Positions 2,582 to 21,363 of a DNA stretch of 23,463 bases are shown here, piece by piece (positions within the stretch are counted from its first letter, which is position 1; every line of letters begins with the position of its first letter). The notes under the pieces were generated by a model, which worked only from the letters and a program-made list of their open reading frames with translations, ran no database searches and had not been told where the DNA came from. A program made the translations under genes and the position numbers. The DNA is from a virus. Location: the IMG/VR virus record IMGVR_UViG_3300037278_000066, positions 1 to 23,463 of that record; one strand, 5' to 3'.

Positions 2582-2599
2582 TTTTTAGGTTGTCGCTTT
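2582..2599 (-). repeat. 18-base dispersed repeat, copy 1
   Basis: Minus strand reads AAAGCGACAACCTAAAAA, identical to copies at 15684, 18195 and 21346. Its first base is the last base of the TAA stop of the 856-residue gene, and its 3' side runs straight into the hairpin at 2532-2581. It marks the boundary between the ejection-protein block and the fibre block. Confidence 0.9.
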
Positions 2600-5169
2600 T
2601 AGCGAGTACGACCTGAGCTAGCTTTGCCTGTCATAGACAAGCGATTCGACAGGTTTAACTTACCTAAGCCCGTCTGACCGGACTTCACTGCACCCTGCTG
2701 CGCTTGCTTGCCTGCACCTTGCGAGTAGATGTTCTGGTGAGACATGATTGAAGCTGGACTCACTGAACCGCTCATCTGAGTTCCTGTAAGGAGTGAAAGC
2801 ATGGCTTGTTGTCGGTACGTCACTCTCCCCTTCTTCCCAGACAGTTGATTCAAGAGTTCAGAGTTGATTTGGTTATAGATCTGCGGATAGACAGACTTCA
2901 CTGCTTCCACGCCTTCTTGTGTGAGTGTTCCTGCGGCTGCTTGCTTTAGGATAGAAGTCGGATTTTGTACGGCATTGTAGTAGCGGTTGAATTTCGACAC
3001 TTCCGACTTCGACGGCGACCACATTGAATCGAGTGGACCTTGCTTTGGATGCTGAGGGATTTTTGAGTTCAGGAAGTTGATGCCAGTAACGGCAGTCATC
3101 TGCATCCCTTGAGCAACCTTAGGAGCATGCTGAGACAAGTCTGCCGTCGAGTTCGAAAGAACTCCATGAAACTTGGCAGCGTCTGCATAGAGCTCTTGGA
3201 TGTGGGCTGTTCTCTTCTCAAACACTGGAACACTATCCTCGTGGTCTTTCCCGAAGTCTTTCGCTAAGCCAGCAGCAACTTCGCCACGGCCTACAGAGAA
3301 TGCACGGCTACTTCCTGACAAGATTGCTTGAACACCGGAAGAGATCTTCGCAGAGCTTTTGTTAGCTAAGGATTCAAGTGCGACCAGTCGTTGAATTGTA
3401 CCACCTGGATTAGCGAGGGCTTTGTATGCTCCGGCTCCAGCAGCAACTAACGTTCCTGGAAGTCCGACTGCATGAGCAACACCGCCAGCAAGGAAAGGAC
3501 TGATCGAATCACCTTGGCCGGTGTTCACTTGACCTTGAAGTCTTGCGAGTTGAGCGTTTTGCTCGGCGTTCTCAATGTAAGAAGCATTCTTGGCAGCAAG
3601 TGCTTCATGAGCAGCTTGATCAAACTTTCCTGTCGGCATGTTTGTATACGACTCTTGAATCTCATCGATCATGTTCTTCGATGCCTTCATGTAACGGTCG
3701 AGTGCCGCTTTACGAATCTCGTTCTGAGGAGTTCCAATGCCGTTATAGAAGGCGTTCACCTTCGTAGGATTGGCCTTCAATGTAACGCCACCGTTATTGC
3801 TCTTAGTTTTGTAGAGGAAGTTCTTTTGAAACTCCTTCTTTGCAGTGAAATATTCGTTTTGAGCTTCGTTGAATGCAGCTTGCCTGCTAGCACCTGGGCC
3901 GAACACGCCCTCGTTCTCAAGAGAGCCTTTCAAGTCACCACGAAGAGACTTAACTAAGTTGATCGCGTCTGAGTCGGCGGCAGAAGTAACTCCGTCGAAC
4001 TTCAAAACCTTCGAGTCGAGAGTTTGCTTCAAGTCGTTAAGAGTTGCGAAGACCTCGGCCGGAGTTTGTGCAGCTTGTCCGTCACGCATCAATCCCTTCT
4101 GAATGTCTTCAAGCTTAGAAGCGAACCGTCCAGGATAGATGTCTGGCTTTTCACGCATCTCTTGGATGGTGTCGCCGAGCTTATTGAAGACGCGCTTGTA
4201 CTCTTCGTTCACTCCCGTCTCATCAACTCCTTTAACAAGGTCAGCCGTTTCTCCAGGACGAATGTCTCTGTTTGCAGTCTTCAAAGCAGCTTCAGTCTCT
4301 TTGTATTGATCAGCTAAAGACTCTGCCGTTTCGTTAACGGTTGCGGCGCGAGCTTCCGCCGTTGGGAGTGCTAGGTGACGGTTCTGCAATGCTTCTGCTA
4401 TTGAGGCTTCTGGAACGCCAGAGACAGCGCTAGACACCTTCGAGAATGCATCGCCTGCTGCACCAGAGGCCCTGTCGAAGATTGAAGAGAGGGAGTTCTT
4501 AGCTTTCTGAACAGCCTCAGGAATAACAACTCCACCTAGACCGACAAGACCACCGATACCACCACCCAAAAGAGCAGAGAGACCGATTTGAGAAACTGCA
4601 TGCTCTGCAACTTCACTTGGATCTCCAAGAGCGGACTCACTTACCACGTTTCCTAGCCCGTAAGCAGCTCCCTCGATTGCGGATCCAACAGCTTTGCTTC
4701 CTGCTTTCGCAAGGATTCGTCCAGCAAGAGATTCACCGGCCGGTAACGCCGCAGCAGTTGCAGCCTCGGCAGCCGAACCAAGTTTGCCAACGCCCTTTAC
4801 AAGGTTAGCAGCTCCAAGCTCATCGCCGACAAGCATCGGAGCAACGATTCCCGTCACAGTTCCTGCAGTGTCAGCAATCTTATGTCGCTTCTCAAGTTGA
4901 GTGAGCGTGCGAGGATCTGCCAAGCCGGTGTCAGTGAGCAAGTGATCAGAAAGTCCAAAGGTCGCCGCACGAGCCGCAGCAGCACCGAAGGCCTTTGCAG
5001 AGTTACCCACACCGTCGCCGTACTCTGCATCGTCTTGCACATCTTGTATTTGTGCATCGTTAGGGACAGTGTAACCGCCCTGTTGAATCGCTTGTTGCGC
5101 TTCGCTTGCGTCGACGTTTACCGGATCACCGTTTGGATCCAGTAGGTTCACTCTTGAGGAATCTGCCAT
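2599..5169 (-). CDS. Internal virion (DNA-ejection) protein, largest
   Basis: An 856-residue, Ala- and Gly-rich protein. It has a polar N-terminus (NLLDPNGDP), then two glycine-rich hydrophobic stretches that could insert in a membrane: residues about 195-220 (LSALLGGGIGGLVGLGG) and about 585-612 (VGLPGTLVAAGAGAYKAL). Long charged helical segments lie between them, probably coiled coil. Size, composition and position after the nozzle gene match the internal head proteins of short-tailed phages that are ejected with the DNA and span the host envelope. No lysozyme or transglycosylase active-site pattern is visible. It starts directly after the stop of the 531-residue gene (TAAATG). Function is inferred from context; sequence identity in this class is usually low. 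Confidence 0.75.
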   Translation of the reverse strand: MADSSRVNLLDPNGDPVNVDASEAQQAIQQGGYTVPNDAQIQDVQDDAEYGDGVGNSAKAFGAAAARAATFGLSDHLLTDTGLADPRTLTQLEKRHKIADTAGTVTGIVAPMLVGDELGAANLVKGVGKLGSAAEAATAAALPAGESLAGRILAKAGSKAVGSAIEGAAYGLGNVVSESALGDPSEVAEHAVSQIGLSALLGGGIGGLVGLGGVVIPEAVQKAKNSLSSIFDRASGAAGDAFSKVSSAVSGVPEASIAEALQNRHLALPTAEARAATVNETAESLADQYKETEAALKTANRDIRPGETADLVKGVDETGVNEEYKRVFNKLGDTIQEMREKPDIYPGRFASKLEDIQKGLMRDGQAAQTPAEVFATLNDLKQTLDSKVLKFDGVTSAADSDAINLVKSLRGDLKGSLENEGVFGPGASRQAAFNEAQNEYFTAKKEFQKNFLYKTKSNNGGVTLKANPTKVNAFYNGIGTPQNEIRKAALDRYMKASKNMIDEIQESYTNMPTGKFDQAAHEALAAKNASYIENAEQNAQLARLQGQVNTGQGDSISPFLAGGVAHAVGLPGTLVAAGAGAYKALANPGGTIQRLVALESLANKSSAKISSGVQAILSGSSRAFSVGRGEVAAGLAKDFGKDHEDSVPVFEKRTAHIQELYADAAKFHGVLSNSTADLSQHAPKVAQGMQMTAVTGINFLNSKIPQHPKQGPLDSMWSPSKSEVSKFNRYYNAVQNPTSILKQAAAGTLTQEGVEAVKSVYPQIYNQINSELLNQLSGKKGRVTYRQQAMLSLLTGTQMSGSVSPASIMSHQNIYSQGAGKQAQQGAVKSGQTGLGKLNLSNRLSMTGKASSGRTR

Positions 5170-6765
5170 TTAGTTGAAGCCTTTTTTCGCTGTGCTTGGT
5201 TTGAAAGGAGCTTGATAGTTAACGAGCTTGTGTTTGAAGCCTGCCACTTGTGCGTCAGTGAGTGACTGTCTGAGTGCCTTGGTACGGTTCGCACCGTTTG
5301 CACCGAAGATGGACTTCATCGCAGATGGGTCACCGAACTGCTTACCGATCTGTTCAAGCAACTCAGGACTGTGACGCTTGATTCCTTCGTTGTTCGAGAT
5401 CTTAAGCTTCAGCGAACTAACGAGTGATTGAGCTTTTTTGTTCTCTGGAGTTCCAGGAACACCAGCCTCAGGACCGAGCTTATCGAGACGGTCAAGTCCC
5501 GCAGTGATGTCCTCAGTCGAAGACAAGTTGCTACGGATGTCTTCCGCTTCTTTCTCAGAGTTTGCGATCGCGACTTGTCCGTTGGGAAGTTTAACAGCAC
5601 GAGCTTGAATCTTAGGATCCGCGGTATTCAAATCTTGCTGAGTTCCTTGCCCGTTTGCAATTCGCGCTTGCCCCATGAGCATTGCTGTCTTGGCGTTGAC
5701 TTGTTGAATCTGCATCTTGAGTTGACCAAGGAGTTGATCTTTTCGTGCAACCGCCTCTGGACCCATTGCTTGAGCGTTAGCCTGGCTCACTTGTGCAGCC
5801 GTAATTGCCAAGAGCTGACTCTGAGTCATCGACTCCGCAGCTTGAACAGATCCCGTGATGGCGAGGTTCTGACTAATCAAGCTGTGCTTGTTTGCCATGT
5901 TGGTCTTTTGAGCGTCGATGTCGCGATCGATATTGTGATTGATCTGGTCGACAGCAACGTTTCCGCCCTTGCCAGTGAAAGCACCGCCGATACCACCAAG
6001 GAACATAGCAATAGCAGCCGTGTTCTTCGAGTGAGCGTTCTTCCCGTCTGCATCGCCACTCCAATAATGGGTGGGATCGATCTTATCGTTTTGAGCAGCG
6101 TTAAATAGATCCATCGAACGTTGGTTGAGCGAATCAACCTGTCCTTGATAGTGATCCATATTCTTTTGAAGGTTGTCGGCTGTGGTTCCGTAAGTTTTCG
6201 AAAGCTTGTTGCCAAGATCAGTCTGGGCTTGCGCGCCTTCGTTGATGCCCTTGGTAATTTGATCGACACCCGCAGGATTGGGAAGGTTAGCTGGAGCTTG
6301 CGCAGCAGAAGTTGGATCCATTGAGCCCGTGGCAGGTGCACTCACTTGCATGGTGTTCGCGTTTGGATCAGTTACCAGCGGAGTTGCTGGAGTCTGATCT
6401 TCATCGCTTGCAGTCGGAGTGCCTTTATAATTAGTCGAACCCATTCCTGACAAGTCGGAAGCTTCAGAGCCTGCCTTAGCAGGATCAAACTTAGAGTCGT
6501 CGTAGAAGTACTGGCTTGCGCCAGCGAAGGGATTCAACTGATTCAGTGCTTCCAAACGCTCAGACGAGACTTGCGAATCAGAACCAGGAGCAGCAGCAGC
6601 ATCATCCTCAACTTCTCCGCCATCAGCGAACTTAGGAAGAGACTTGATGGACTGGTAGTTACGCTCTGACATGGCTTTCTTAGCCATCTTGAAAGACTTG
6701 CCGTCATTCGTGTTATGAAGGACAAAATGATCTTTGGCTTCGTGGACTAGTTTATAATTCTTCAT
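5170..6765 (-). CDS. Internal virion protein, middle
   Basis: A 531-residue polar protein, predicted mostly helical and Gln/Asn/Ala-rich. The N-terminus is a small domain (MKNYKLVHEAKDHFVLHN and following, residues 1-45), then the motif FADGGEVEDD, then a low-complexity Pro/Thr/Ala linker to about residue 165, then long helices. A glycine-rich stretch IAMFLGGIGGAFTGKGG lies near residues 250-270. The FADGG motif recurs in the neighbouring 341-residue protein, which suggests that the two share a particle function. ATG shares one base with the previous stop (TAATG). Position within the three-gene block before the fibres supports an ejection-protein role; nothing in the sequence proves it. Confidence 0.7.
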   Translation of the reverse strand: MKNYKLVHEAKDHFVLHNTNDGKSFKMAKKAMSERNYQSIKSLPKFADGGEVEDDAAAAPGSDSQVSSERLEALNQLNPFAGASQYFYDDSKFDPAKAGSEASDLSGMGSTNYKGTPTASDEDQTPATPLVTDPNANTMQVSAPATGSMDPTSAAQAPANLPNPAGVDQITKGINEGAQAQTDLGNKLSKTYGTTADNLQKNMDHYQGQVDSLNQRSMDLFNAAQNDKIDPTHYWSGDADGKNAHSKNTAAIAMFLGGIGGAFTGKGGNVAVDQINHNIDRDIDAQKTNMANKHSLISQNLAITGSVQAAESMTQSQLLAITAAQVSQANAQAMGPEAVARKDQLLGQLKMQIQQVNAKTAMLMGQARIANGQGTQQDLNTADPKIQARAVKLPNGQVAIANSEKEAEDIRSNLSSTEDITAGLDRLDKLGPEAGVPGTPENKKAQSLVSSLKLKISNNEGIKRHSPELLEQIGKQFGDPSAMKSIFGANGANRTKALRQSLTDAQVAGFKHKLVNYQAPFKPSTAKKGFN

Positions 6766-7790
6766 TACTTCGCTGCCTTCATAGTGCTTTCGAGACGCTT
6801 CAGACGCTCATGCAAGTTGCGTTGGCCTTCGAGCACTTTGCCGTAGCCTTGAGCACCGGAAGCCTTTTTTGGAGTCTGATGTTTTTTGAGTGCTTCCATA
6901 AACTCCTTGGCTTTCTCAGGAGCGTTCGCGGCAGTTGTCACTGAGCGAGGGAGGACGACTTCACCAGGCGAAGCGAGGATAGGCTTCGTATCGTTTGCAA
7001 AACTGTTTCCAGGAACTAAAGCATGTCCTGGAACTTTCCCGCCCTTTGCCATCAAAGCTAATAGGCCAAGCAATGCACCTGCTCCTCCGCCTCCACCACC
7101 ACCGCCACTTGAACTTTGCGCGGGCGGAGGTTGAGAAGTCGGAACAGAGAGTTGAGGATTCGAGTTGTCGACCATACCGCCGTCGGCAAACATCGACATA
7201 GCAGAGCTTGCACCGTTCATGATGCCACCGATAACTTGCGAGCTAGTCGCTGCGTTCTGAGTTTGGTTTCCTGCTGCAACGCTAGCGTTCACTTGATCTG
7301 CGCCGAGATCACCCGTGTTGATTGCTGAGTTCTGATTGGCTTGCGCGGTCTGCGTAGTTGCGTTGTTAGCTTGCGCTTGAGTCCCGACGTTATTCAGGAT
7401 TGCAGTCTGGTTATTCAGGGCTTGGTTCTGCGCAGTCATCTGGTTAGTTGCTTCAGTGCCTGCGGCATTCTGACTTGCGGTAGCTTGCGCATTAGATGCA
7501 AGTCGTGCGGCCAGTGCAGGATTGATTCCCTTTTGAGAAGCAATCGTCCCAGCTGTCTGCTCAGCGTTTTGATCGACGTTCTGTTGGTACTGAGTCTGAG
7601 CAGCGTTATTCGCAGTTCCGTTAGCTACAGCTGCTTGTTGAGCTGCAAGTGCTTGCTCAGAGCTGATGTTTGAGCCGATTGTGTTTTGGCTACTGTTGAT
7701 AGTGGGCGTGAGATTTTGTTGGTTAATCCCTGGTGCCTGTACGCTGTAGTAGTTAGTTGTGCCGTCAGCGGCGTTTACTAAACTTCCCAT
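6765..7790 (-). CDS. Internal virion protein with GG-rich SPGE motif
   Basis: A 341-residue protein. Its first 190 residues are an extreme Asn/Gln/Ala-rich helical region. Next come FADGGMVDN (about 200-208), a Pro/Ser linker, a run of eight glycines, a short hydrophobic stretch (GALLGLLALMAKGG) and the motif PILASPGEVVLPRS. That last pattern (GG-x-V-P-G, then N-D, then SPGE-x-V-x-P-R-S) recurs in tape-measure-like and internal virion proteins of many phages. The tail end is lysine-rich (residues about 290-341). A strong ribosome binding site AAGGAAC lies inside the preceding acetyltransferase gene, and the ATG overlaps its stop (TAATG). Role in the internal virion assembly is inferred from motif and position. 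Confidence 0.7.
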   Translation of the reverse strand: MGSLVNAADGTTNYYSVQAPGINQQNLTPTINSSQNTIGSNISSEQALAAQQAAVANGTANNAAQTQYQQNVDQNAEQTAGTIASQKGINPALAARLASNAQATASQNAAGTEATNQMTAQNQALNNQTAILNNVGTQAQANNATTQTAQANQNSAINTGDLGADQVNASVAAGNQTQNAATSSQVIGGIMNGASSAMSMFADGGMVDNSNPQLSVPTSQPPPAQSSSGGGGGGGGAGALLGLLALMAKGGKVPGHALVPGNSFANDTKPILASPGEVVLPRSVTTAANAPEKAKEFMEALKKHQTPKKASGAQGYGKVLEGQRNLHERLKRLESTMKAAK

Positions 7791-8158
7791 TATAGTTCCT
7801 TGTAAAAGGACTCGTAGGTCCCTGATGATTTGAAGCCAAGATCAATGCTGAGTTGAACCATCGAAGGAAACTGTGAGTCTGCCTTCAAGAGTTGAACACC
7901 TTGGTTCTTAGCGAATGAAATTATTGTTTGGCTCAAGAGCTCTAGAGCAGCACGACGCTGTTCCTTTGGAGCTTCTGGGTCTGTGATGAATACGTCTGCG
8001 ATGCCAACGGTTGAGTTCGTTAGATACAGAAATCCTGCTGCCTCTTGAGTGATGAAGCCAGTCTTAGACAAGACTTCAAGCGAGGGACAAACACGTCCCC
8101 GCTTAGCAAACCATGTGCAGATAGTCGGATAGTCCGACTCGGTGAAAGACCGAATCAT
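7790..8158 (-). CDS. Short GNAT-like acetyltransferase family protein
   Basis: A 122-residue protein whose N-terminus MIRSFTESDYPTICTWFAKRG resembles the first strand and helices of GNAT folds. After a short beta hairpin (AGFLYLTNSTVGIADVFI) comes a helix with PKEQRRAALELLSQTI, in the place where the acetyl-CoA-binding loop and helix sit, then LLKADSQ and a closing DLGFKSSGTYESFYKEL, also GNAT-like. A canonical Q/R-x-x-G-x-G/A loop is not present, so catalysis is doubtful. Small GNAT-like proteins between nozzle and internal-protein genes are common in short-tailed phages; substrate and role are unknown. It overlaps the nozzle gene by four bases (ATGA). Confidence 0.65.
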   Translation of the reverse strand: MIRSFTESDYPTICTWFAKRGRVCPSLEVLSKTGFITQEAAGFLYLTNSTVGIADVFITDPEAPKEQRRAALELLSQTIISFAKNQGVQLLKADSQFPSMVQLSIDLGFKSSGTYESFYKEL

Positions 8159-11112
8159 CCGAAGATCCGAGTTGCAGGGAGACGGTTGAGACCACCCTTT
8201 TGACCCACTTCAAACGCGATTGCAGACAGACTGAACCCTTCGCCATAATTTGATGTTTGAATATCCTCTATGGAGATTTGTAGGGTGTCGCATTTCTGTT
8301 GAGCTAGATCGACTCTGAATTGATAAACAGGATTCTGCCCACCATACACACCAGCTCCAGAAGCATAAGTTCCTGTGCCAGATGCGTAAGGCGCAGTCGG
8401 GTTTATGATTGCGGTCGTATCAATGAGGTCTGACTGAGTAAAAACAGGGATGAAGTCATAACCCACTTTTACTAAGAGCTTGTGCGGACTCTTGTATGTT
8501 CCAAGGATCGTCGCTTTGTAAACGCGCTGGTATCCTTGAAGACCGGCCATCGACATCCAAGCAAGAACAACGCGCAATTTGATAGCGCTTCCGTTATCGT
8601 TGAATTGCCCAGGAGTCTCTTGTTGGATTGTCCCGTTCGATTGGATGTAACAATACACGTTCTGGAAAACGGTCGAGTCAGCCGCGGCAATGTTTGTGAA
8701 CACTGACCACTGGTTATAGGCCGTATCGTAAGTGAGACAGACTCCAGTATTCAGAGTGAATCGCACTTGGTTGCTAGTAGCTAAGAGCTGCGCTGATGTC
8801 ACTGAAGACGAGTTGTAAGCTTCAACGTCGGCACCGATGTAGTAGTCAACGAGAGAGCGATTGAGCAAGTAAATGCCCTTTGAGCTCTGATACATCAAGC
8901 CTGCTGGAACCTGCACTAAACTCTTCGTGTTAACACATCCTGAGTCAGCGGCAATTAACAAAGCTTCTGCGAAGTCATCGTTCAATCCGTTCGCAGAAGG
9001 ACCATCACCAGTCGTATAGAAAATGTTATGGCTTTTAAGGAAGACTAGGTTGGCGTCAAGCTGAGCAACGGCAGTGATACTCCCTCCACGCTGGTCGATG
9101 TTCTTAACGAAGGTGTCGTTCACTTCTACCGGAGAACCGGGAACAGTCTGCTTAGAGAACCACCATGTGAGACCATTTTCAGAGGGAACGATAATTAGTC
9201 GGTTCTTGTAAGTCCCGATGATCTGAGTAGCAGGTGCCGCGATGTTTTCGATCACACCACCGGTTGTATAGATCTGCTCATTTCCTATGATCACTGAGTC
9301 AGCCAAGCCGTCCGTGATAGTGATCGAGTCAACCGTTGGGTCGTTCAACACAGGAGTCGCGATTGTCGTCACTGCGTAAAGCACTGTCTGGTTAACGAAT
9401 GTTCGATAGAGCATGATGCGAACGTTCGACTTGCCAGTGAGTCTGAGAGTTGGAACGGTCACTAACACCGTCGCTCCACCGCTGACGCTTATTGTGAGAA
9501 GCTGAGATGGTGCTGAGTTATGATCTTGTCCCTGAGCGTCTGTCCAACGATAGACAGCAGAATACCCATAACTTCCTGACGACAAACTGCCACCTGAGCC
9601 AGCAGCAGCAGTGAGTCCCTCAGGAAATAAGTGGAAGCCGTGCTCGGAGATCGTTGCCCCGTCATAGCAAGACAAGATCCCGCCAGTGATGTGCAAGTTG
9701 GAGCCAAGCTCAAGCGTTTGAAACTGAGCATCTACAAAGTCGAAAGTCCCGGACATCACGCCGGTGTTTGAGAACACATTTCCAGCAATTGTCGAGATGA
9801 AGTCCTTCTGTAGGAACGCGAACTGGAATACACCAGGCGAAACGACGTTAACCTCAGTGAGGATGGACGCAACTGTAACGCCACCGGCGTTCTGGTTAGC
9901 AACTTTCCCGACTACTTGCCCAAGCGAATTCAGAACAAAGTAAGACGGCTGTAATGTCGCCGTATTAGTTGAAGTCGGAGACGGTCCATAAGCAGTAATA
10001 ACATAGACACTTCCGTTATAAGAGAAAGCCTTCGAAACGATACCGACTGAGCCGACAAGTCTGCTTGCGGTTCCTACGACACCAAGAAGCGTGCATGTGT
10101 TGATGCGAATCTGGTTCTTGTATTCCGTTGCTCCAGCGACTTCGTAGAAGATCGTCGCCGTTGTTCCGGATATTGAAGTAGTTATGTTACGGGACAAAAC
10201 CGTCTCAACAACTTGAGGAGCTACGAGAACTCCTGACAATGCGTTGTTAACTACGGTCACCTTCGTAGCAGTTCCGTTACAGTAGGAAACCCAGAGATTT
10301 CCAGAAGCATCGGCCGCGACGTTGATTGCATTCGAAGCTGAGTCACTTCCAAAGGAATAGACGTTACTCGTCTGCAGGTAAGAGTTGATGCTCCGTGAAG
10401 AGATAGAGCCAATACTGTTGTTGAACACCAAGTAGGCGATGTTTTGAAATACTGCTACGTCGTAGAGGTAGTTCGTCGTGTTCATTGTCGTGTTGAAGTC
10501 TACAGCCGCACTCAAGAGAGTCGGTGAACCCAGGGCAATCGACTTATACTGAATCCTTCCGTTGACCGGATTGAAATAGAAAACAACGAAGTAGTTTCCT
10601 AAGACGACCGGCTTCGCTCTCTTACCAGCAGACAAAACCGCATTGGCTACGATCTGTTGGTTCGTAGACGAGTCTGTCACCGAGTAGCGAATTCCTCCGC
10701 TAGAGTCTTCCCATGTGAAGATTTGAAGGCCTGAGCTATGAAGAGCCGAGTCTTGAACAAGTTGGAGGTTTGAGTTTCGAATGATCGGCTTTGATGTCAC
10801 TTCAAGATTCACTAAGGAACCTTTGTTCGACCACATCTGAGCTGACGGCGAGAAGCTGAACAAGCTCGTGCCATCAAAGGACAAGAGTTCATTCTTAAAC
10901 GTTGTTGTTCCTGCTCCGGCAGTGATCCCTGTAGTGCTAGAGAAGACTGAGCGAGCCAAGGCTTGAAAGCCGCTGCGCTTACGAAGCTCCTTAGGAGAAG
11001 AGAAGATTCCGTTCTCCAGAACAGCAACCTTGCCTTGGATTTGATATGGGTCGGTCTTTGTATCTACGCCGTTGCCAAGCGAGACCGTTACGATTTGCTT
11101 TTGTAACGGCAT
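8155..11112 (-). CDS. Tail nozzle / packaged-DNA stabilisation protein
   Basis: A 985-residue beta-rich protein. The N-terminal segment VSLGNGVDTKTDPYQI, followed by LENGIFSSPKELRKRSGF (residues about 10-48), is the usual opening of the nozzle/stabilisation proteins of podoviruses (P22 gp10-like or T7 tail-tubular-B-like), which list the virion data in a beta-propeller body and close the tail tube. Later segments such as YSAVYRWTDAQGQDHNSAPS (about 520-540) and the NRLIIVPSENGLTWWFS region (about 635) also fit that family. It is longer than P22 gp10 (about 470), so extra domains are likely. It starts two bases after the stop of the fibre-like gene and overlaps the GNAT-like gene. Family assignment is by recalled pattern. 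Confidence 0.8.
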   Translation of the reverse strand: MPLQKQIVTVSLGNGVDTKTDPYQIQGKVAVLENGIFSSPKELRKRSGFQALARSVFSSTTGITAGAGTTTFKNELLSFDGTSLFSFSPSAQMWSNKGSLVNLEVTSKPIIRNSNLQLVQDSALHSSGLQIFTWEDSSGGIRYSVTDSSTNQQIVANAVLSAGKRAKPVVLGNYFVVFYFNPVNGRIQYKSIALGSPTLLSAAVDFNTTMNTTNYLYDVAVFQNIAYLVFNNSIGSISSRSINSYLQTSNVYSFGSDSASNAINVAADASGNLWVSYCNGTATKVTVVNNALSGVLVAPQVVETVLSRNITTSISGTTATIFYEVAGATEYKNQIRINTCTLLGVVGTASRLVGSVGIVSKAFSYNGSVYVITAYGPSPTSTNTATLQPSYFVLNSLGQVVGKVANQNAGGVTVASILTEVNVVSPGVFQFAFLQKDFISTIAGNVFSNTGVMSGTFDFVDAQFQTLELGSNLHITGGILSCYDGATISEHGFHLFPEGLTAAAGSGGSLSSGSYGYSAVYRWTDAQGQDHNSAPSQLLTISVSGGATVLVTVPTLRLTGKSNVRIMLYRTFVNQTVLYAVTTIATPVLNDPTVDSITITDGLADSVIIGNEQIYTTGGVIENIAAPATQIIGTYKNRLIIVPSENGLTWWFSKQTVPGSPVEVNDTFVKNIDQRGGSITAVAQLDANLVFLKSHNIFYTTGDGPSANGLNDDFAEALLIAADSGCVNTKSLVQVPAGLMYQSSKGIYLLNRSLVDYYIGADVEAYNSSSVTSAQLLATSNQVRFTLNTGVCLTYDTAYNQWSVFTNIAAADSTVFQNVYCYIQSNGTIQQETPGQFNDNGSAIKLRVVLAWMSMAGLQGYQRVYKATILGTYKSPHKLLVKVGYDFIPVFTQSDLIDTTAIINPTAPYASGTGTYASGAGVYGGQNPVYQFRVDLAQQKCDTLQISIEDIQTSNYGEGFSLSAIAFEVGQKGGLNRLPATRIFG

Positions 11113-11114
11113 GA

Positions 11115-12137: not shown

Positions 12138-12146
12138 TTTTTCCTT

Positions 12147-13153: not shown

Positions 13154-13158
13154 CTATA

Positions 13159-13178
13159 GTTCCTTAGATAAAAGGAAC
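13159..13178 (-). promoter_or_regulatory. Hairpin sequestering the adaptor ribosome binding site
   Basis: Minus strand has arms GTTCCTT (13178-13172) and AAGGAAC (13165-13159) around a six-base loop. The second arm contains the AAGGA ribosome binding site of the adaptor gene that starts at 13153. It follows the terminator hairpin and shares one base with it. It could act as a translational switch or as a processing site; that role is inference from the complementarity. Confidence 0.5.
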
Positions 13179-13195
13179 CCCGCTTGTAAGCGGGG
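13178..13195 (-). terminator. Rho-independent terminator after the head gene block
   Basis: Perfect inverted repeat CCCCGCTT/AAGCGGGG with a minimal loop (stem effectively CCCCGC/GCGGGG with six-base loop), followed on the minus strand by TTCCTTTTATC. It lies eight bases downstream of the stop of the 84-residue gene and upstream of the adaptor gene. The U-tract is interrupted, so partial read-through is likely. Confidence 0.75.
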
Positions 13196-13202
13196 CTCGG
13201 AG

Positions 13203-13457: not shown

Positions 13458-13460
13458 GGG

Positions 13461-13850
13461 TTACGCTCCGACAGATCTAGAAAGTTGGATTGCGATCAAG
13501 ATCTCTTCGCCAGATGCAGGGTCAGTTGCAGTGCCAGTAGGCGTTTGAAACTGAACTGTTAAGCTAGGAGCGAGTGGAGTTACAGAGCCGTTAACGTTGG
13601 CGATTGAAGTCACCGACATAACAGGTGCAGCGGGAGCGGTAGAGACGAGCGTCTCGCACACGTTCAAGCAACGGACGTATCGGTCCGCTAAGACGATAGT
13701 GTAGTTGCCAGTAGAGTTACGAATGATCGACTTGATACCAATTGAGTTTGTAGCTTTGAGAGTTGGAGCACCGGAAGCACCGACAGTGAAGTCCATGAAC
13801 AGGTCAACCGTCTTTAGCTCTTTACGCTCGAGTTGGTTATTGACAGGCAT
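13461..13850 (-). CDS. Head decoration / minor capsid candidate
   Basis: A 129-residue beta-rich protein directly downstream of the major capsid gene and its terminator. It begins MPVNNQLERKELKTVDLFMDF, and most of the rest is alternating strands (NYTIVLADRYV, LTVQFQTPTG, EEILIAIQLSRS). Single-domain beta proteins at this place commonly decorate the capsid, but I cannot match it to a named family. It has its own ribosome binding site AAGGA, in an AT-rich leader immediately after the terminator, so expression depends on read-through or a separate promoter. Confidence 0.6.
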   Translation of the reverse strand: MPVNNQLERKELKTVDLFMDFTVGASGAPTLKATNSIGIKSIIRNSTGNYTIVLADRYVRCLNVCETLVSTAPAAPVMSVTSIANVNGSVTPLAPSLTVQFQTPTGTATDPASGEEILIAIQLSRSVGA

Positions 13851-13871
13851 TTTAATTTTTCCTTAGTAGTA

Positions 13872-13905
13872 AATAAAAAGAGCCCATCCCGAATGAGATA
13901 GGCCC
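13872..13905 (-). terminator. Rho-independent terminator after the major capsid gene
   Basis: On the minus strand GGGCCTATCTC pairs with GGGATGGGCTC (11 base pairs including G-T wobbles) around loop ATTC and is followed by TTTTTATTTA. It begins 14 bases after the capsid stop codon. A terminator here is common for the most abundant late transcript. Confidence 0.85.
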
Positions 13906-13919
13906 GTAAAACGGAGGGC

Positions 13920-15155
13920 TTAGTACTGGAGCGAAACGACTGCGCACGCCGAAGTGTTGTGGCAGGCAAGGTTCCAGTAGGCAGAGATGCGGTATTGAGC
14001 TGCATCTGTGTCGATGAGGTTCAAGAATGCACCGCGCTCGTCTTGAAGCTCAGGAGCTTGGCCAAGCGAAGCGATCTCAAGAACGTCAGTGTCCAAGATG
14101 AAAGCTGTTTGCGGAGGGCATGAACGATCAGGAACGACGTTCAAGATTCCGAGTGCAGTGGCCATCTGGAAACCAGTGAAACCAACAACAACTTCAGCGC
14201 CGTCACGCTTCGTGTTCACATCCATGCGCTGCACTTGAATCTTGGCACCCATCTCAAGGCTAAGTTGCTGCCAAGAAACCGGGTTCATGACGATGACGTC
14301 AGCTTTGCCAGTAGTTGAGTTCTGCATGAGTTGAACCACTGCTTTAGTGAGCGAGTCTTGAACCGACTCTCCACCAACCGATGCGTAACGAGTTCCTGCC
14401 AAGTTAGGAGCAGTCGAACGGTCGATACCGTAGAAGTTGTCTCCACCGACAGGTGCAGTAACCGGGAACCAGCCAAGAAGACCAGACACACCAGCGTTAG
14501 AGTTTCCGTTAGGAACTAAGTAGCCAGTTGCTACCCAACCCGTAGGAGTTGCAGCTGATCCGCCGAGAGTCAGAGAAACTGTGATTGTTCCTGCGTCAGG
14601 CGAGATCGCGATAACATATCCGCCAGCAGCAACCGGAGTTCCACCGTCAGACGTAGCTTGTTGAAGGAGTTGGTTGATCGAGAAGTTTCGAGCATCCGAG
14701 GGCGAAGCAAGAGTGATCACGCCAGAGGTGATCGAAGAGATCACACCAAGTGTACCTGTTCCTGAGCGAAACAAAGCCATGCTCATCTCAAGAGAGACTT
14801 GCTGGATCTTTTGATCGATCTCGAACGACTTAGCACTGATGAAAGCGCCGATGTCGTTTGCAGAAGCCATCATAGCTTCACGAGAGATTGTTCCAACACC
14901 GTAGTTGTATTTACGAGTGAGCTGGAACTTCTTGTACTGACCAGGAGTTTGGTTCGTGTATGCAGACGAGAAGCTGTTTGATCCTGCGCCTGTGCTAGAG
15001 AGCAAAGGAAGCGGATATGTTTCACCAACAAAGTTAGTGTTCTTCTTAATCATCGCGAAGGTCGGACGACCTTGGAAGATAAGCGAAGCGACCTTTTGGC
15101 CGTTGTAGTACTCTTTCAGAGCACCGTTGATTGCGTTGATGTCTAGAATTGCCAT
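13920..15155 (-). CDS. Major capsid protein
   Basis: A 411-residue protein directly after the scaffold gene. The N-terminal part LKEYYNGQKVASLIFQGRP, followed by TFAMIKKNTNFVGETYPLPL (residues about 13-52), is the recurring opening of a capsid family found in short-tailed phages (HK97 fold by family knowledge). A long helical part (ISREAMMASANDIGAFISAK, about 94-113, then KSFEIDQKIQQVS) would be the spine helix region. Residues about 140-225 look like an inserted beta domain. DVIVMNPVSWQQL (about 280-292) and the C-terminal AQYRISAYWNLACHN fit the A-domain end. A ribosome binding site AAAAGG stands before ATG. A strong terminator follows, fitting high expression. Confidence 0.85.
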   Translation of the reverse strand: MAILDINAINGALKEYYNGQKVASLIFQGRPTFAMIKKNTNFVGETYPLPLLSSTGAGSNSFSSAYTNQTPGQYKKFQLTRKYNYGVGTISREAMMASANDIGAFISAKSFEIDQKIQQVSLEMSMALFRSGTGTLGVISSITSGVITLASPSDARNFSINQLLQQATSDGGTPVAAGGYVIAISPDAGTITVSLTLGGSAATPTGWVATGYLVPNGNSNAGVSGLLGWFPVTAPVGGDNFYGIDRSTAPNLAGTRYASVGGESVQDSLTKAVVQLMQNSTTGKADVIVMNPVSWQQLSLEMGAKIQVQRMDVNTKRDGAEVVVGFTGFQMATALGILNVVPDRSCPPQTAFILDTDVLEIASLGQAPELQDERGAFLNLIDTDAAQYRISAYWNLACHNTSACAVVSLQY

Positions 15156-15168
15156 TTGAAATTACCTT

Positions 15169-16071
15169 TTAATTTTTGCGTGCGAGCTCGTGATAACGAG
15201 CGACTGCACTTGCAAGAGCGTCAGAGCCTGAATGGTTCGAAATTGAACGAGACGACTGCGAAGCCGGAGTTAATGAAGACGAGATTGTCCGGTTGCTGAT
15301 GGACGGCTTGGGTGCTTGCTGTTGCGCCACTTGGGGCTGTGGCTGTGCCTTCGCTTTGATTTTCTTGGTCTCTAGTGCTTTCGAGGCCAGTTCTTCTAGG
15401 TACTGTTCAACGAGGTCTGCGGCTTTATCAGTTGCCATGACTTCGTTTGTTTCTTCGAAGTGCAGTTCAATAACCTTCCGCACTTCTAGTTCTTGATTAT
15501 AAAGTTTCGTGAGCTCGTACTTCTCAGCGTTATCCGCTACGAAATCCACGATGCTCTTCGTCCAGTTCTCGACAACTTGCGCTTGCTCTGCCTCAAGTTT
15601 CGTTTTCTCAGCAGCTAGAACCTTGTCGCGCTCTGCTTGCTGCTCTTTCCTGAACTCTTCGATCTTGCGATCTACCTCTGAGATTTTTAGGTTGTCGCTT
15701 TGCTGACCACCGCTAAGGAAGTAGTCGTTCACTTGATCAAGTGTGAGACCGGCTTCTTCTAGGAACTTGAGCGGATTCTTGAGAGCCTCTTTCTTCGCGT
15801 CTTCGAAAGCTTTGATCTGCGCTTGAACTGGGCTCAACCCTTCGCGTTCGGCTTTCAGAGCTTCACGCTCTGCTTGGAGTTTGGCTTCCTTCTTCGCGAG
15901 GGCAGCGAATCGTGTCGACGCAAGTTCTTGCTTGGGCTCAACTTTTGTTTCTACAGGAGTAGTTGAGTCTGCTTGAACGGGTGTCGTCTTGTTCTCTACG
16001 ACTGGAGTTGCTGGAGTGGGGATTGCGTTAGGCGTAGCTGTGCCTACGGTGATCGTTGGTGTTTCGCTCAT
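15169..16071 (-). CDS. Scaffolding protein
   Basis: A 300-residue, strongly charged, predicted mostly helical protein between portal and major capsid genes, the standard place of the scaffold. The N-terminus is Pro/Thr-rich and disordered (1-48). Coiled-coil segments rich in Lys, Glu, Gln and Ala follow (55-92, 132-175, 210-240). A disordered Gln/Ser-rich linker and a short C-terminal helix (ALASAVARYHELARKN) complete it; a basic C-terminal helix that binds coat is the rule in this family. The ribosome binding site is AAGGAA. The dispersed 18-base repeat lies inside this gene in frame (residues 124-129, QSDNLK). Confidence 0.85.
   Translation of the reverse strand: MSETPTITVGTATPNAIPTPATPVVENKTTPVQADSTTPVETKVEPKQELASTRFAALAKKEAKLQAEREALKAEREGLSPVQAQIKAFEDAKKEALKNPLKFLEEAGLTLDQVNDYFLSGGQQSDNLKISEVDRKIEEFRKEQQAERDKVLAAEKTKLEAEQAQVVENWTKSIVDFVADNAEKYELTKLYNQELEVRKVIELHFEETNEVMATDKAADLVEQYLEELASKALETKKIKAKAQPQPQVAQQQAPKPSISNRTISSSLTPASQSSRSISNHSGSDALASAVARYHELARKN
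15684..15701 (-). repeat. 18-base dispersed repeat, copy 2 (inside scaffold gene)
   Basis: Minus strand AAAGCGACAACCTAAAAA, then TCTC as in copy 4. The only copy within a coding region, translated in frame as part of the scaffold. It lies about 530 bases upstream of the major capsid start, a possible place for an internal promoter. Confidence 0.9.
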
Positions 16072-16076
16072 CGAAA

Positions 16077-17954
16077 TTAAGTTCCTTGGGGTTGTTGAGG
16101 AGGTACGTTGGGAATGAGGTTAGATACCGGCGGAGGCGCTGGATTCGCCTGCGGTGTGTTCATGCCTGGTGCTGGTGGCATTGCCGGAGCTGGCGGTGGA
16201 GTTGTGAGAGTGACGACTTGATCGATGAACCTGCGAAGGAGTTCGATCTTCTCTTCCTCTAAGCCGTTTGTTTGACCATGCTTTAAGTAGAGCAAAGCCA
16301 AACTGTGAGCGAGCTGTAGATCGTCGTAAGACTCTGGCGGTGTGTAGTCGCCGTCGTCGATGATCTGTTCAAGGATCATGTGCAAGTAGTCTTCCGGAGC
16401 GTTCTGTAAACTCTCGGCTGCTTCTAAGTCGGGATAGTCGAGCAAGCGCTGACCACTACGAACACTCAGCATTCCTGCTTGAATGAATTCTTGAATGGTC
16501 TGCAATCTTCCTGAGGGATCCTTAGGAAGTGATGAGACTGGGAAAGCCTTCATCACAAACTCGTCAGCTTCTAAGTCGACGTCATTCCAATTAAGAGTCT
16601 TAAGGTATTTCCCGTTAGGGCTCTTAACGCTGAGTGACCCTTCGTCATCCCCGTTCGAAATTTCTTTCGCCGTCTCAATGATGAGCATCGCTAGCTTAAG
16701 GAAGAACTGTTCGTATGCTTGGCCGAAGCTCTGCGTGCGGTCAGTACTGATGTCGTCGTATGTCCTGATTGCTTCACCTGAGTCGAGACCTGCTGGCTTC
16801 TGACCAGCGGACGCAAGCTGCGAGATCCCTTCTTGGTTGTAGGCATCTGTCTTGAGCTGTTGGATCTGCGAGTAGAGTTCCGGCTGAACGATTGGCGGAA
16901 GGATGTATTGCGGTGGTTCGTCACTCTGGATTGTCTGAGCGATCTCATTACTGAGCTTAGAGTCGACTAAGCGTGAACCAGTCTTCGTCCACACCTTGAA
17001 TGTCCCAGCAAGTCGTTGAGACCTGTAGACGATGTGTTCGAGTAAGTTGAGCTTCTTCTGGATGTGTTGGACACGCTCGATCAATCCCTTGCCAAAGATT
17101 CCTACAAGCGGCTCTTGGTAGTTCAAGATCGCAAATGGAAACCCGTCACGGTCATAGTCTTCCTCTAGGAGAGAAGTACCTTCGATAGTGATGAGATGCT
17201 TTCCATCGGTGGCGTCAGGACCAGACTTCAAGTGCCATGATTCACGCACTGTCACCATGTCAGCTACTAGCGCCATGCCGGTGATACTGTTGAACGTGGC
17301 TTTCTGTGCTGTCTTGATCTGAGCTTCGAACTCAGGAAACATCTCACAGAGGATCATGCGATCAACGTTACGGATCTGGTGAAGCTGGCGAGGTGAACCG
17401 TACATCGCCTCTAAAGGATCGACGTAGAGCTCAGTAGGTAAGATGCGCTCAAGCTTGATCCTGCCGTTCTCGGCAAACACCTTCACTAAGCCAGACCCAA
17501 AGATGCTTGCGTCACGTAGAGCAGACATACCCAAGTGGTAGGCCTTGTTCTCGTACATCACGCCATCAACGAATTCAGAGAGCTTCTGCGCACGACGCTG
17601 GAGCTTGTAGTTGCCACCGTCAGTGAGGAACATAGCTCGAGGCTTGTTACTCAACATCCGACTAGTGAGCGTCTCTACCATCGAGGAGCAGAGATTCAAT
17701 CCTTGGACTGAGTTGGTGTTTGGCTTCGTCGAGTAGCTTCGCTTGCTCCCATAGACATGAAGTCCACCGAACAGGTTGCCGTCGTAGAGCATTGCTGAGT
17801 CACTGAGTTGAGCTAAGCGTCCGTGCGAGTTGTTAACGATGGCCTGGATTGCGGCCGTGATGCTGTCAGCAGCTACTCGTCCTTCCATAGTCCACCAACG
17901 AACATCAGAGGGAACTGAGCCAACCTGCTGAGGACCAAGGACAACGTTACTCAC
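16077..17954 (-). CDS. Portal protein
   Basis: A 625-residue protein that would form the dodecameric DNA-entry ring. Visible family features are the helical N-terminus with SHGRLAQLSDSAMLYDG (residues 43-59), LRDASIFGSGLVKVF (146-160), ILPTELYVDPLEAMYG (171-186) and a long helical stem/crown region (about 290-420; DSGEAIRTYDD, then AYEQFFLKLAMLIIE). The last 42 residues are a proline-rich, probably disordered tail. The length fits portals of short-tailed phages; I cannot say whether it is nearer the P22 or T7 type. It overlaps the 78-residue gene upstream by 8 bases and is followed by the scaffold with a 5-base gap. Confidence 0.85.
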   Translation of the reverse strand: MSNVVLGPQQVGSVPSDVRWWTMEGRVAADSITAAIQAIVNNSHGRLAQLSDSAMLYDGNLFGGLHVYGSKRSYSTKPNTNSVQGLNLCSSMVETLTSRMLSNKPRAMFLTDGGNYKLQRRAQKLSEFVDGVMYENKAYHLGMSALRDASIFGSGLVKVFAENGRIKLERILPTELYVDPLEAMYGSPRQLHQIRNVDRMILCEMFPEFEAQIKTAQKATFNSITGMALVADMVTVRESWHLKSGPDATDGKHLITIEGTSLLEEDYDRDGFPFAILNYQEPLVGIFGKGLIERVQHIQKKLNLLEHIVYRSQRLAGTFKVWTKTGSRLVDSKLSNEIAQTIQSDEPPQYILPPIVQPELYSQIQQLKTDAYNQEGISQLASAGQKPAGLDSGEAIRTYDDISTDRTQSFGQAYEQFFLKLAMLIIETAKEISNGDDEGSLSVKSPNGKYLKTLNWNDVDLEADEFVMKAFPVSSLPKDPSGRLQTIQEFIQAGMLSVRSGQRLLDYPDLEAAESLQNAPEDYLHMILEQIIDDGDYTPPESYDDLQLAHSLALLYLKHGQTNGLEEEKIELLRRFIDQVVTLTTPPPAPAMPPAPGMNTPQANPAPPPVSNLIPNVPPQQPQGT

Positions 17955-18183
17955 GGTTCACCTGGAAGCCGCTCGCAGCGAAAAGGATCTCGTCCTCAGT
18001 GGGAAGATCATCGATGAGTTCGATGTCCTCTAGAGTTGGTTGTGCGTTGGTAGTTGCTGAAGAGGAGACATGATGGCCGATAGCAAGTTCGAAGGCGTTG
18101 CACTTGAAGGAAGCTACTCGGCCATCATGCAGAACCTGCAGGAGGTTCTTGAGGTAGTCCAGATCTGGTAATGTTTGATTCAT
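17947..18183 (-). CDS. Small portal-associated protein, function unknown
   Basis: A 78-residue protein whose segment YLKNLLQVLHDGRVASFKCNAF (about 10-31) follows a pattern of small proteins that I recall upstream of portal genes in podovirus-like phages; no function is known to me. The C-terminal half is acidic (LEDIELIDDLPTEDEILF). The ATG at 18183 lacks a ribosome binding site: the minus strand before it reads CCTCCTGGTA, and the 18-base repeat ends exactly 11 bases upstream. A perfect 12-base inverted repeat lies inside the gene. It overlaps the portal start by 8 bases, so it may couple portal translation. Confidence 0.6.
   Translation of the reverse strand: MNQTLPDLDYLKNLLQVLHDGRVASFKCNAFELAIGHHVSSSATTNAQPTLEDIELIDDLPTEDEILFAASGFQVNRE
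18069..18129. repeat. 12-base inverted repeat with nested stem inside the 78-residue gene
   Basis: CATGATGGCCGA (18069-18080) and TCGGCCATCATG (18118-18129) are perfect reverse complements. Between them CAAGT and ACTTG form a nested 5-base stem around a central loop of about 13 bases. It could fold into a long RNA hairpin or serve as a protein-binding site ahead of the portal gene. Confidence 0.75.
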
Positions 18184-18194
18184 TACCAGGAGGA

Positions 18195-18212
18195 TTTTTA
18201 GGTTGTCGCTTT
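18195..18212 (-). repeat. 18-base dispersed repeat, copy 3 (at recombinase stop)
   Basis: Minus strand AAAGCGACAACCTAAAAA, then TCC. It overlaps the TAA stop of the recombinase gene by two bases and ends 11 bases before the ATG of the 78-residue gene. A repeat right after an integrase gene is also where an attachment site would be expected, but three other copies argue against a simple attP. Confidence 0.9.
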
Positions 18213-18771
18213 AGATGCTCGTGATTGCCTTGTTGATCTCGTCTTGAAAGACCTCAAGGTAATTAACCGTAGAGGTTATAGAGGCATGGCCCAACGCTTT
18301 ACTCGTCTTCACTACGTCGTTGCCTAAAGCCTTGTGAACTCTGGTTGCGAAGCTCTTACGCATGCAGTGAGTTCCTGTACGTCCGTCTATTCCAGACATC
18401 GCTTCTTTGAGGATGATGTGAGCTTGAACTCGACTAATGGCTTTGTTCGACTTCATCGACTTGAAGAGAGGTGTTGCACCTGAGTTAGTTAGGGAAAGGA
18501 TTCTGCAATATTCCCCTAGAGCTTCTCGCGCTTGAGGGTGAAGGATAACAGTACGGGCTTTGTGTTTGCCCTTCATAGATTTCTTAGCTACTGAGACCTG
18601 AGCTACGACTTGGTTGTCTTGGTAGACGTCATCCAAGGATAGAGAAAGTAGCTCAGAGATACGGAAGCCAGTCTTCAGACCAACGATGAACAAGGCCTTA
18701 TCACGTAGGCTCGTGAGGTTAGAAGTGACGAGGCTGATTTCTGTATCGCTTAAGCTCTTGCAACCGCTCAT
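18211..18771 (-). CDS. Tyrosine recombinase, catalytic domain only
   Basis: About 186 residues. Catalytic residues of the tyrosine recombinase family are all visible (numbered from the ATG at 18777): Arg39 in TGFRISELLSL, a Lys in GKHKARTVIL (71-73), HxxR as His137 and Arg140 in GTHCMRKSFATR, His164 in ALGHASITSTVNYL and the nucleophile Tyr173. The N-terminal core-binding domain of lambda- or Xer-type integrases is absent; the length resembles FimB/FimE-type recombinases. AAGGAG touches the ATG at 18777 but is six bases from the ATG at 18771, so I chose the latter. It lies, unusually, between the large terminase and the portal genes on the same strand, and the 18-base repeat covers its stop. 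Integration, resolution of genome concatemers or DNA inversion are possible roles. Confidence 0.85.
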   Translation of the reverse strand: MSGCKSLSDTEISLVTSNLTSLRDKALFIVGLKTGFRISELLSLSLDDVYQDNQVVAQVSVAKKSMKGKHKARTVILHPQAREALGEYCRILSLTNSGATPLFKSMKSNKAISRVQAHIILKEAMSGIDGRTGTHCMRKSFATRVHKALGNDVVKTSKALGHASITSTVNYLEVFQDEINKAITSI

Positions 18772-18777
18772 ATCCAT

Positions 18778-18893
18778 CTCCTTGTTCAGGCAGGACTAGA
18801 ATATCAAGCAAGCATCGAGAAGCACATTTTCCTAACGAAACGGTGATTTGTTAGCAAGATTTTGGGGCAGTATTTACACTCAATACGATTGGT
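18778..18893. other. Intergenic gap between terminase and recombinase
   Basis: A 116-base gap without a gene, the largest in the window. It contains an imperfect inverted repeat CTAACGAAA/ATTTGTTAG (18832-18853) and AT-rich stretches, but no convincing promoter pair or terminator. It could hold a promoter or an operator for the recombinase; I cannot show that. Confidence 0.4.
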
Positions 18894-20336
18894 TTAGTAA
18901 GGATCATCGTAATGGAAGGGGTCGTTTTTACGGTGATAGGCAGCGATTGCAGCTGCTTCCATCTTCCTCTGTTCCTTTAGGAACCACTCAGTTGTGTGCG
19001 GAGCTGGTTGTACTGCACTAGCTTTATACAGCCAGTTCTGTGCTGCACGGAATGCATACAGCGTGGAGTCCATAGCGTCAGAGTGAAACCTATCGCTTAC
19101 CTTGCGCTTCTGCGTCTTAGGGTTCCATTCCCACTCAACCTTGTCACAGTCTTGAGCGAATACAGACTCATGCTTAGCTTTGAATGTTGAAGCGCATAGA
19201 GCACCATTCAATAGCTCAAGGAACTCAGCTTTGCGGGTCTTCTCTGCTACCTCTACAGATAGATCGAAGCGGTTGTTGATGTCCTCAGCCCATTTCAAAG
19301 CACCGTTAGCAGGGTCAACCACAGTCTTAACGGGGTCATACTTAGCTGTTAGTGCACGAATCTGAGTGGATAGCTGTTCCCAACCTTGCTTTGCTTGCAC
19401 AATTTCATCGATGAGATAGCAATTTGGAGAATCGTCGTACCAACCGATCACCGAAATTGAATCTGAGTCCTTAAAGCCTGTGTCTATCCCTATGATGGTC
19501 TGTAACGGACTGGCTGAGCTAGGTAAGTCTCGATAATCGTTCCTGTTCCTATCGTAGCGTAGGACTAGAGAGTTGAGATCTGTGATCCACTCTCCAAAGC
19601 ATTCTCTACGAATACTCGGATCATCTATTCCACATCCTTTTCTCTCGCAGTCTTGAAGGATCAAGTCCTCTACTGAGAGTTTATTCCCTTTCTTTAGCAG
19701 GAAAGGATTCGCATGCATGGTCCACTTATGCTTAGACCACTTTGGGTTATGGCATACGTCGTAGAAGTAACCGGCTGGTATTGGGCCTGGTGTTCCAGTG
19801 AGCTTCAAACGGCCGTTGTGGTCGAACAGTGCCTTAGCAATGACGTCGTCTACTAGCTCCTGCAGGAAAGAGCCGAACGACTGAGCTTCGTCGATGTAGC
19901 ATAGTGAAAGAGCAAGCCCGCGGAATCGCTCGATAGAGACTTTGTCCTTAGCTCCAGACACATAAATTATCGACTTGTTAGGAAATGTGATGCTGAGCTC
20001 GGTTGCATTGAGCTCTCCGTTCAACTTAAGAGTGCGGTTCAGCTCTAGTAGCTTTGACCAGACGATCTTCTTGGCATTCGACCGAGACAGAGTGAGGTAC
20101 AACGCCGTGATCCCATCCTTGGAAGTGGCCTCTCTTAGAAGGTCGTAGCAGATCCCTTCAGTCTTCCCTGCCCTACGTGAACAGCATGCAACTGAGTACG
20201 GTGCTGGATCATCGACGAACGCGAGTTGCTCCTTGAATAGGAACCGAGTGATGTTGAGTGAGGCCTTTTGCTGTAGCTTTCGCGCAAGTAGCTCCTTCTT
20301 GATGAGGAGTTGATTGGCAGTGAGTGGCTTAGCCAT
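18894..20336 (-). CDS. terL: Terminase large subunit
   Basis: A 480-residue packaging motor. The ATPase domain shows the Walker A variant CSRRAGKT (52-59), Walker B with LCYIDEAQ (145-152; Asp149, catalytic Glu150) and the coupling motif KLTGTPG (178-184). The RNase H-like nuclease domain begins IIGIDTGFKDSDS (281-293) with Asp285, then VVDPANG with Asp341, then FHSDAMDSTLYAFR with Asp420/Asp423 as third acidic site. It cuts and translocates phage DNA into the prohead through the portal. Its ATG overlaps the preceding gene by 8 bases with no good ribosome binding site, suggesting coupled translation. The family is clear; the packaging type (headful or defined ends) is not readable here. No certain small subunit lies immediately beside it. 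Confidence 0.95.
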   Translation of the reverse strand: MAKPLTANQLLIKKELLARKLQQKASLNITRFLFKEQLAFVDDPAPYSVACCSRRAGKTEGICYDLLREATSKDGITALYLTLSRSNAKKIVWSKLLELNRTLKLNGELNATELSITFPNKSIIYVSGAKDKVSIERFRGLALSLCYIDEAQSFGSFLQELVDDVIAKALFDHNGRLKLTGTPGPIPAGYFYDVCHNPKWSKHKWTMHANPFLLKKGNKLSVEDLILQDCERKGCGIDDPSIRRECFGEWITDLNSLVLRYDRNRNDYRDLPSSASPLQTIIGIDTGFKDSDSISVIGWYDDSPNCYLIDEIVQAKQGWEQLSTQIRALTAKYDPVKTVVDPANGALKWAEDINNRFDLSVEVAEKTRKAEFLELLNGALCASTFKAKHESVFAQDCDKVEWEWNPKTQKRKVSDRFHSDAMDSTLYAFRAAQNWLYKASAVQPAPHTTEWFLKEQRKMEAAAIAAYHRKNDPFHYDDPY

Positions 20337-20923: not shown

Positions 20924-21334
20924 TTAAATTGCGTAGGGATTGTAGTTGTTCGTAAGCAGCGGATACTTCAGAGCAATCCAGTTCATGTCTGGAGTCGCGT
21001 GAGTAAACTGCATTTGATTTGGATCAATGCTTTGATGCTGGATGAGATTTGTGGCGACACCCAGCTTTCGAAACTGGAACTTTACGTAGCAGTAGTGAAC
21101 GACGTTCGGCTCTGTTACTAGGTAACCGACTATTATGTTCGGTTGTCCCGTTGGGTGAGCGATCACGACTTGCGATCTTGTGAGGATTGATTCAATGATC
21201 TTGTGATGCCAGGAGAAATAGATCTTCGATTCGATATTCTGCGCGAACTGGCTTGTTCGATAGGACTTCAGCCAAGTTGCATAGATAAAAGGAAGGTCGT
21301 CAGGTTTCGCTGGTCTAATCTCAATCTCGCTCAT
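20924..21334 (-). CDS. GNAT-family N-acetyltransferase-like protein
   Basis: A 136-residue protein. The N-terminus IEIRPAKPDDLPFIYATWLKSYR is a characteristic GNAT beginning; VVIAHPTGQPNIIVGYLVTE gives the two middle strands, and VHYCYVKFQFRKLGVATNLI (79-98) is the acetyl-CoA-binding motif A with R-x-x-G-x-A as RKLGVA. It would transfer an acetyl group to an amine; the substrate is unknown. The same type occurs near terminase genes of many podovirus-like phages. The ATG has no ribosome binding site but lies exactly 11 bases after the 18-base repeat, which also ends the preceding gene. Confidence 0.8.
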   Translation of the reverse strand: MSEIEIRPAKPDDLPFIYATWLKSYRTSQFAQNIESKIYFSWHHKIIESILTRSQVVIAHPTGQPNIIVGYLVTEPNVVHYCYVKFQFRKLGVATNLIQHQSIDPNQMQFTHATPDMNWIALKYPLLTNNYNPYAI

Positions 21335-21345
21335 TGAGATAGAGA

Positions 21346-21363
21346 TTTTTAGGTTGTCGCTTT
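21346..21363 (-). repeat. 18-base dispersed repeat, copy 4 (holds a stop codon)
   Basis: Minus strand AAAGCGACAACCTAAAAA encodes the last residues Lys-Ala-Thr-Thr and the TAA stop of the helix-turn-helix gene. With copy 2 it also shares flanking bases on both sides (23 bases in all). It stands 11 bases before the ATG of the GNAT-like gene. Confidence 0.9.

Follow-up and report, generated by a model that had tools for sequence, protein, structure and literature searches.

Sigma-like late regulators of the Xpf/ArpU type are encoded beside packaging genes. In the podoviruses phiEco32 and 7-11, late promoters are served by phage sigma factors, gp36 in the former and gp47 in the latter (PMC8948821, PMC4331800), and these promoters stand at module heads, with a consensus that differs between the two phages while the genome positions are similar (PMC8948821).

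Here we describe a repeated element that marks the late module heads of an environmental virus. The window analyzed is the whole IMG/VR record of 23,463 bases, a genome fragment from which the early half is missing. Its minus-strand genes run from a 179-aa protein, small genes, a helix-turn-helix (HTH) protein, a GNAT-like protein and two small genes to the terminase large subunit, then through a tyrosine recombinase, a 78-aa protein, the portal and a scaffold-like protein to an SU10-type capsid, and finally to an adaptor, a 985-aa tail protein, ejection-like proteins and fibre-side genes. The names ejection, scaffold and fibre were inferred from position, and the capsid and adaptor match SU10 families. 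In the searches made, this podovirus-like group gave only weak terminase matches among cultured phages (pelagiphages and one Rhodoferax phage), and no relatives were found in the bacterial genomes searched with portal or capsid queries. The small gene that opens the ejection-like module (7790-8158) is, by eye, possibly acetyltransferase-like too. Strong terminator-like hairpins followed by T-rich runs were also seen on the coding strand at 13175-13198 and 13880-13905, after an 84-aa gene and the capsid gene, respectively.

A preliminary description of this DNA had reported four exact copies of AAAGCGACAACCTAAAAA, and all of them were recovered at the reported coordinates on the minus strand, oriented along transcription. 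Together with a diverged copy missing from that list, the repeat has the following five members:

21346..21363, minus strand: copy 1, exact; on the stop codon of the HTH gene, heading the GNAT/terminase cluster
18195..18212, minus strand: copy 2, exact; on the stop codon of the recombinase gene, before the 78-aa gene and the portal
15684..15701, minus strand: copy 3, exact; in frame within the scaffold-like gene, ~530 nt before the capsid gene
8277..8294, minus strand: copy 4, with three mismatches; in frame and close to the 3' end of the 985-aa gene, ~120 nt before the ejection-like module
2582..2599, minus strand: copy 5, exact; on the stop codon of an 856-aa gene, before the fibre-side genes

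Copy 4 reads AATGCGACACCCTACAAA and is followed by the same TCTC, whereas copies 1 and 3 are identical across 23 nt (21342-21364 at copy 1). In a weight-matrix scan of the window the five sites scored 32-36 and the next best site 9, with maxima of 9-17 in three shuffled sequences. Shuffling predicts 0.03 matches at three mismatches or fewer, none of 100 shuffles reached five, and in order-3 Markov simulations no 18-mer occurred more than twice. Both kinds of simulation fall short of the observed copies, in agreement with the earlier view that the repeat is not due to chance.

The overlap with stop codons described for the copies at 21346, 18195 and 2582 (HTH, recombinase and 856-aa genes) is also correct, and the probability that at least three of four copies would fall on stop codons is ~5e-5. 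The register of the stop codon differs, however, lying at the start of the motif at 18195 and 2582 and in its middle at 21346, which indicates a constraint on DNA or RNA and not on protein. As had been noted, the copy at 15684 is in frame in the scaffold, where it is read as SDNLKIS. The two intragenic copies share one reading frame and encode similar peptides (SDNLKI in the scaffold, CDTLQI in the 985-aa protein), but given the codon usage of the window their exact codon choice is improbable (P=0.002 and P=0.003, respectively), and the genes of homologous proteins do not have the DNA motif at the aligned positions. An origin of the repeat by chance or at the protein level is ruled out by the shuffles, the Markov simulations and the improbable codon choice.

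A scan of 2.9 million viral contigs for the 17-mer GCGACAACCTAAAAATC found multiple copies only in near-identical contigs of the same virus (L006/L014 and L011, 99.98-100% identity). Six further contigs (L007-L010, L012 and L013), each with one match and no homologues of the window proteins, were judged to be chance hits. A capsid profile search yielded 35 relative loci, in which the gene order is mostly that of the window, and none of them has the window motif at a level comparable to its five copies there. The preliminary description had made the signalling role depend on the motif being conserved as DNA where relatives conserve the surrounding protein. The motif is not retained at ~30-50% protein identity, but in one relative the position is kept with another sequence.

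This distant relative, G013 (IMGVR_UViG_3300014501_000009), is a complete genome of 38,468 bp with a 123-bp terminal repeat. A mismatch-tolerant repeat search, which recovers 17 promoter copies in T7 and the five copies of the window, pointed to a different repeat in G013, TGACCACTTATTACTATT; the window motif is absent from this genome. Its sites are as follows:

G013, 392: TGACCACTTATTACTATT site 6 nt past the preceding ORF, before the capsid gene
G013, 15672: TGACCACTTATTACTATT site on a stop codon, before the homologue of the 125-aa fibre-side gene of the window
G013, 33143: TGACCACTTATTACTATT site with two mismatches, overlapping the stop codon where an HTH gene ends, before GNAT
G013, 31329: weaker TGACCACTTATTACTATT candidate, likewise on a stop codon

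The three strong sites, two of them on stop codons, coincide with three of the window's five heads (GNAT/terminase, capsid and fibre-side). The motif begins 29 nt from the GNAT start in the window, compared with 26 nt in G013. For heads picked randomly among 22 junctions, such a coincidence of heads would have a rough probability of ~0.006. In both phages, then, a repeated element lies at late module heads with its position constant and its sequence different, pointing to promoters that belong to a phage-specific and rapidly changing transcription system. An anchor-based search found no comparable pair of repeats in 24 other relatives, many of them short contigs. In the portal tree the window phage and G013 are not sisters, and G020, from the clade of G013, has no repeat, so that the arrangement arose twice, was lost, or has diverged beyond sight elsewhere. 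Regulatory sequences would turn over while their positions stay, and each phage lineage most likely changed its late-gene start signal for itself. G013 also has a tandem duplication, in which two adjoining post-capsid genes (L057 1935-3959) start near-identically (MSNRRDNQF...).

Promoters are the best supported reading because all copies run with transcription at module heads, three of which carry another repeat in G013. We give about even credence to the full proposal that the repeat represents five phage-specific late promoters, most likely served by a host RNA polymerase redirected by a phage specificity factor. We infer both that transcription starts at the element and which protein reads it. 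One promoter would head each late module, that is, GNAT/terminase, portal, capsid, ejection-like proteins and fibre-side genes, and the motif would be read by the host polymerase through the phage-encoded factor. The best candidate for this factor is the sigma-region-4-like HTH protein whose gene ends in copy 1; produced from an earlier transcript, this protein would subsequently activate all that lies downstream. Against the proposal, the sequence outside the motif shows no evident conserved -10-like element, and the invariant block of 18 bp exceeds the 9-bp element of phiEco32. The genes that adjoin the first two copies are:

21349..21840, minus strand: two-HTH protein resembling sigma region 4, candidate reader of the motif; the gene ends in copy 1
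20924..21334, minus strand: GNAT-like gene, the first past copy 1; conserved a short way upstream of terminase in many relatives
18211..18777, minus strand: Xer-like tyrosine recombinase; the gene end falls in copy 2

The whole HTH protein matches Pfam Sigma70_r4_2 with 37.7 bits against a cut-off of 25.7, although generic HTH families match it equally well, HTH_23 even slightly better. For the HTH proteins of both phages the best NCBIfam match is the region-4 part of the sigma70-ECF superfamily (E=3.4e-9 in the window and 8.7e-5 in G013, both below the curated cut-off). A match to the 'positive control sigma-like factor' model is weak (E=0.003, far under the cut-off). The predicted structure has two three-helix units (mean pLDDT 68), which would suit a contiguous non-palindromic site, and a fold search with this model gave no significant match. 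In the window as in G013, the gene ending in the first motif copy encodes a region-4-like HTH protein. No region-4-like HTH domain was found in the eight repeat-less relatives tested, and the region-4-like hits in G016, G017 and G019 sit elsewhere. This association of repeat and protein in two phages is suggestive but falls short of proof, because HTH domains occur widely and BLASTP gives no alignment between the two proteins.

If the sigma-like protein of the preliminary description is the 179-aa product of 22816-23355, it has no Sigma70_r2 match and reaches only E=0.095 to one sigma family. We rejected it as a sigma factor, since neither Pfam nor PHROG supports the assignment and the AlphaFold model is useless (pLDDT 32); the HTH protein is the better candidate. 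The E=0.095 match corresponds to the region-2 part of the sigma family. The 179-aa protein could be a separate region-2 partner, with which the region-4-like HTH protein would possibly form a split sigma factor. Sigma70_r2 (PF04542) was absent at E<=1 from the window, itself a fragment, and from the relatives. Literature searches on late regulators adjoining terminase yielded nothing relevant to the element.

Downstream of three copies the transcript is predicted to fold, with energy percentiles given relative to the window:

21317..21347, minus strand: predicted RNA hairpin directly past copy 1, the loop of which contains the GNAT start codon; energy over 35 nt in the lowest 2%
18165..18189, minus strand: predicted RNA hairpin directly past copy 2, containing the start codon of the 78-aa gene; lowest 2%
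2532..2581, minus strand: strong predicted RNA hairpin directly past copy 5; -27 kcal/mol over 60 nt, lowest 0.07%

Such hairpins, two of them containing a start codon, together with the presence of every copy in the sense strand of a single transcription unit, would also suit a signal acting in a long late transcript as a processing site, a nut-like antitermination site or a translational operator. We regard this as rather unlikely, since the hairpin sequences are mutually unrelated and missing at the two intragenic copies, those past the G013 repeats are unexceptional, the next start codon lies anywhere between 12 and ~530 nt from the motif, and Rfam gives no match. Downstream hairpins were accordingly rejected as a general part of the element, since they follow only three window copies and do not stand out in G013; they may serve in transcript stability or translational regulation, but do not define the element. 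Alternatively, the promoters could be those of a single-subunit RNA polymerase of T7 type whose gene lies in the missing part of the genome. The element is long, contiguous and invariant, T7 promoters too precede capsid, ejection and fibre genes, several of them on upstream stop codons, some T7 late transcripts begin with a hairpin, and the CGAC, CTA and A positions are common to both. Yet this CGAC-NNN-CTA-N-A likeness, pointed out in the preliminary description, is at chance level: the best comparison with T7/T3/SP6-type promoters gives 12 matches, a value equalled by 9% of permuted motifs, and +1 would be A. The polymerase gene that had been suggested as a search target was not found in the window or in complete relatives. 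In the window fragment PF14700 was negative and no ORF of a single-subunit RNA polymerase was seen, while PF00940 and PF14700 were absent from the terminal-repeat relatives G013, G014, G016 and G020, with a positive T7 control. G013, which shows this promoter-like layout too, contains no unassigned ORF of sufficient size, its long ORFs matching structural or packaging genes. A T7-type polymerase as the reader is thus disfavoured and we consider it unlikely; of the roles proposed earlier, that of a phage-specific promoter is best supported, by the module-head copies along transcription and the parallel in G013, and the link to T7 is not supported.

The motif could also be an operator at which a phage regulator, activator or repressor, acts on nearby host-type promoters, without being a promoter itself. 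The two-HTH protein gene adjoining copy 1 would agree with this, as would the palindromic operator-like repeats in the early region of G016, but the motif is not palindromic, and a scan of 1-19900 (copy 1 lies outside) found no sigma-70-type promoter near the copies and fewer sigma-70-type matches than in shuffled sequences; such an operator therefore appears quite improbable. Even less credible is a recombination or module-boundary sequence, such as a set of sites for the Xer-like recombinase of the window, the stop codon of which lies under copy 2. At a tyrosine recombinase site, two inverted arms flank a core of 6-8 bp, and on inspection the motif has no such arms. Exchange between direct copies would delete terminase, portal or capsid genes, two copies lie within conserved genes, and three of the module heads carry another repeat in G013. 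The recombination or boundary role suggested earlier is unlikely because inverted arms are missing and direct repeats would delete essential genes, and we see hardly any chance for it.

Two side observations concern these last subjects. The recombinase is a catalytic-domain-only protein of 188 aa placed between terminase and portal, and tblastn found no homologue of it at the corresponding place in the relatives. G016 has three copies of a near-perfect AATATACGTCCGGACGTATATT-like palindrome in its early region (11019, 13519 and 20152; L063 11019 and 13519; L064 152), two of the three followed by the same AGGAGGAGGATGATATG, resembling a repressor operator set. This repeat, near a region-4-like hit, was rejected as a counterpart of the motif, being palindromic, operator-like and away from the late heads.

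With promoters as the preferred reading, the window offers a candidate orthogonal promoter/factor pair, that is, a promoter set with a putative reader encoded beside copy 1. In a more specific version, which we consider possible but less likely than not, the host RNA polymerase would be led to an unusually long contiguous element of 18-23 bp by a small two-HTH region-4-like protein without recognisable region 2, element and reader being replaced together between phage lineages while module positions stay constant.

A close parallel to the proposed promoters is found in phiEco32 and 7-11, podoviruses whose phage-specific promoters are few, well conserved and placed at the heads of late modules, and in which the consensus changes between related phages although the genome positions remain similar. 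The element in those phages is either a single box of 9 bp or bipartite (6+4, with a 16-bp gap), whereas that of the window is contiguous over 18-23 nt; their motifs, tAATGTAtA and GTAAtg-(16)-aCTA, differ from ours, and unlike in those phages no sigma region 2 was found in the window. With the class III promoters of T7 the element shares a long contiguous invariant sequence heading capsid, ejection and fibre modules, several copies on an upstream stop codon and, at some, a hairpin at the transcript start, but the sequence similarity is at chance level, the complete relatives have no single-subunit RNA polymerase, and there are five copies in the window against 17 recovered in T7. As in the Xpf/ArpU type, a small sigma-like HTH protein is encoded just ahead of the packaging genes, although the match that links them is a single weak one (E=0.003). 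Systems of this kind are known from phiEco32, 7-11 and T7 (PMC8948821, PMC4331800), whereas this sequence, phage group and reader would each be new.
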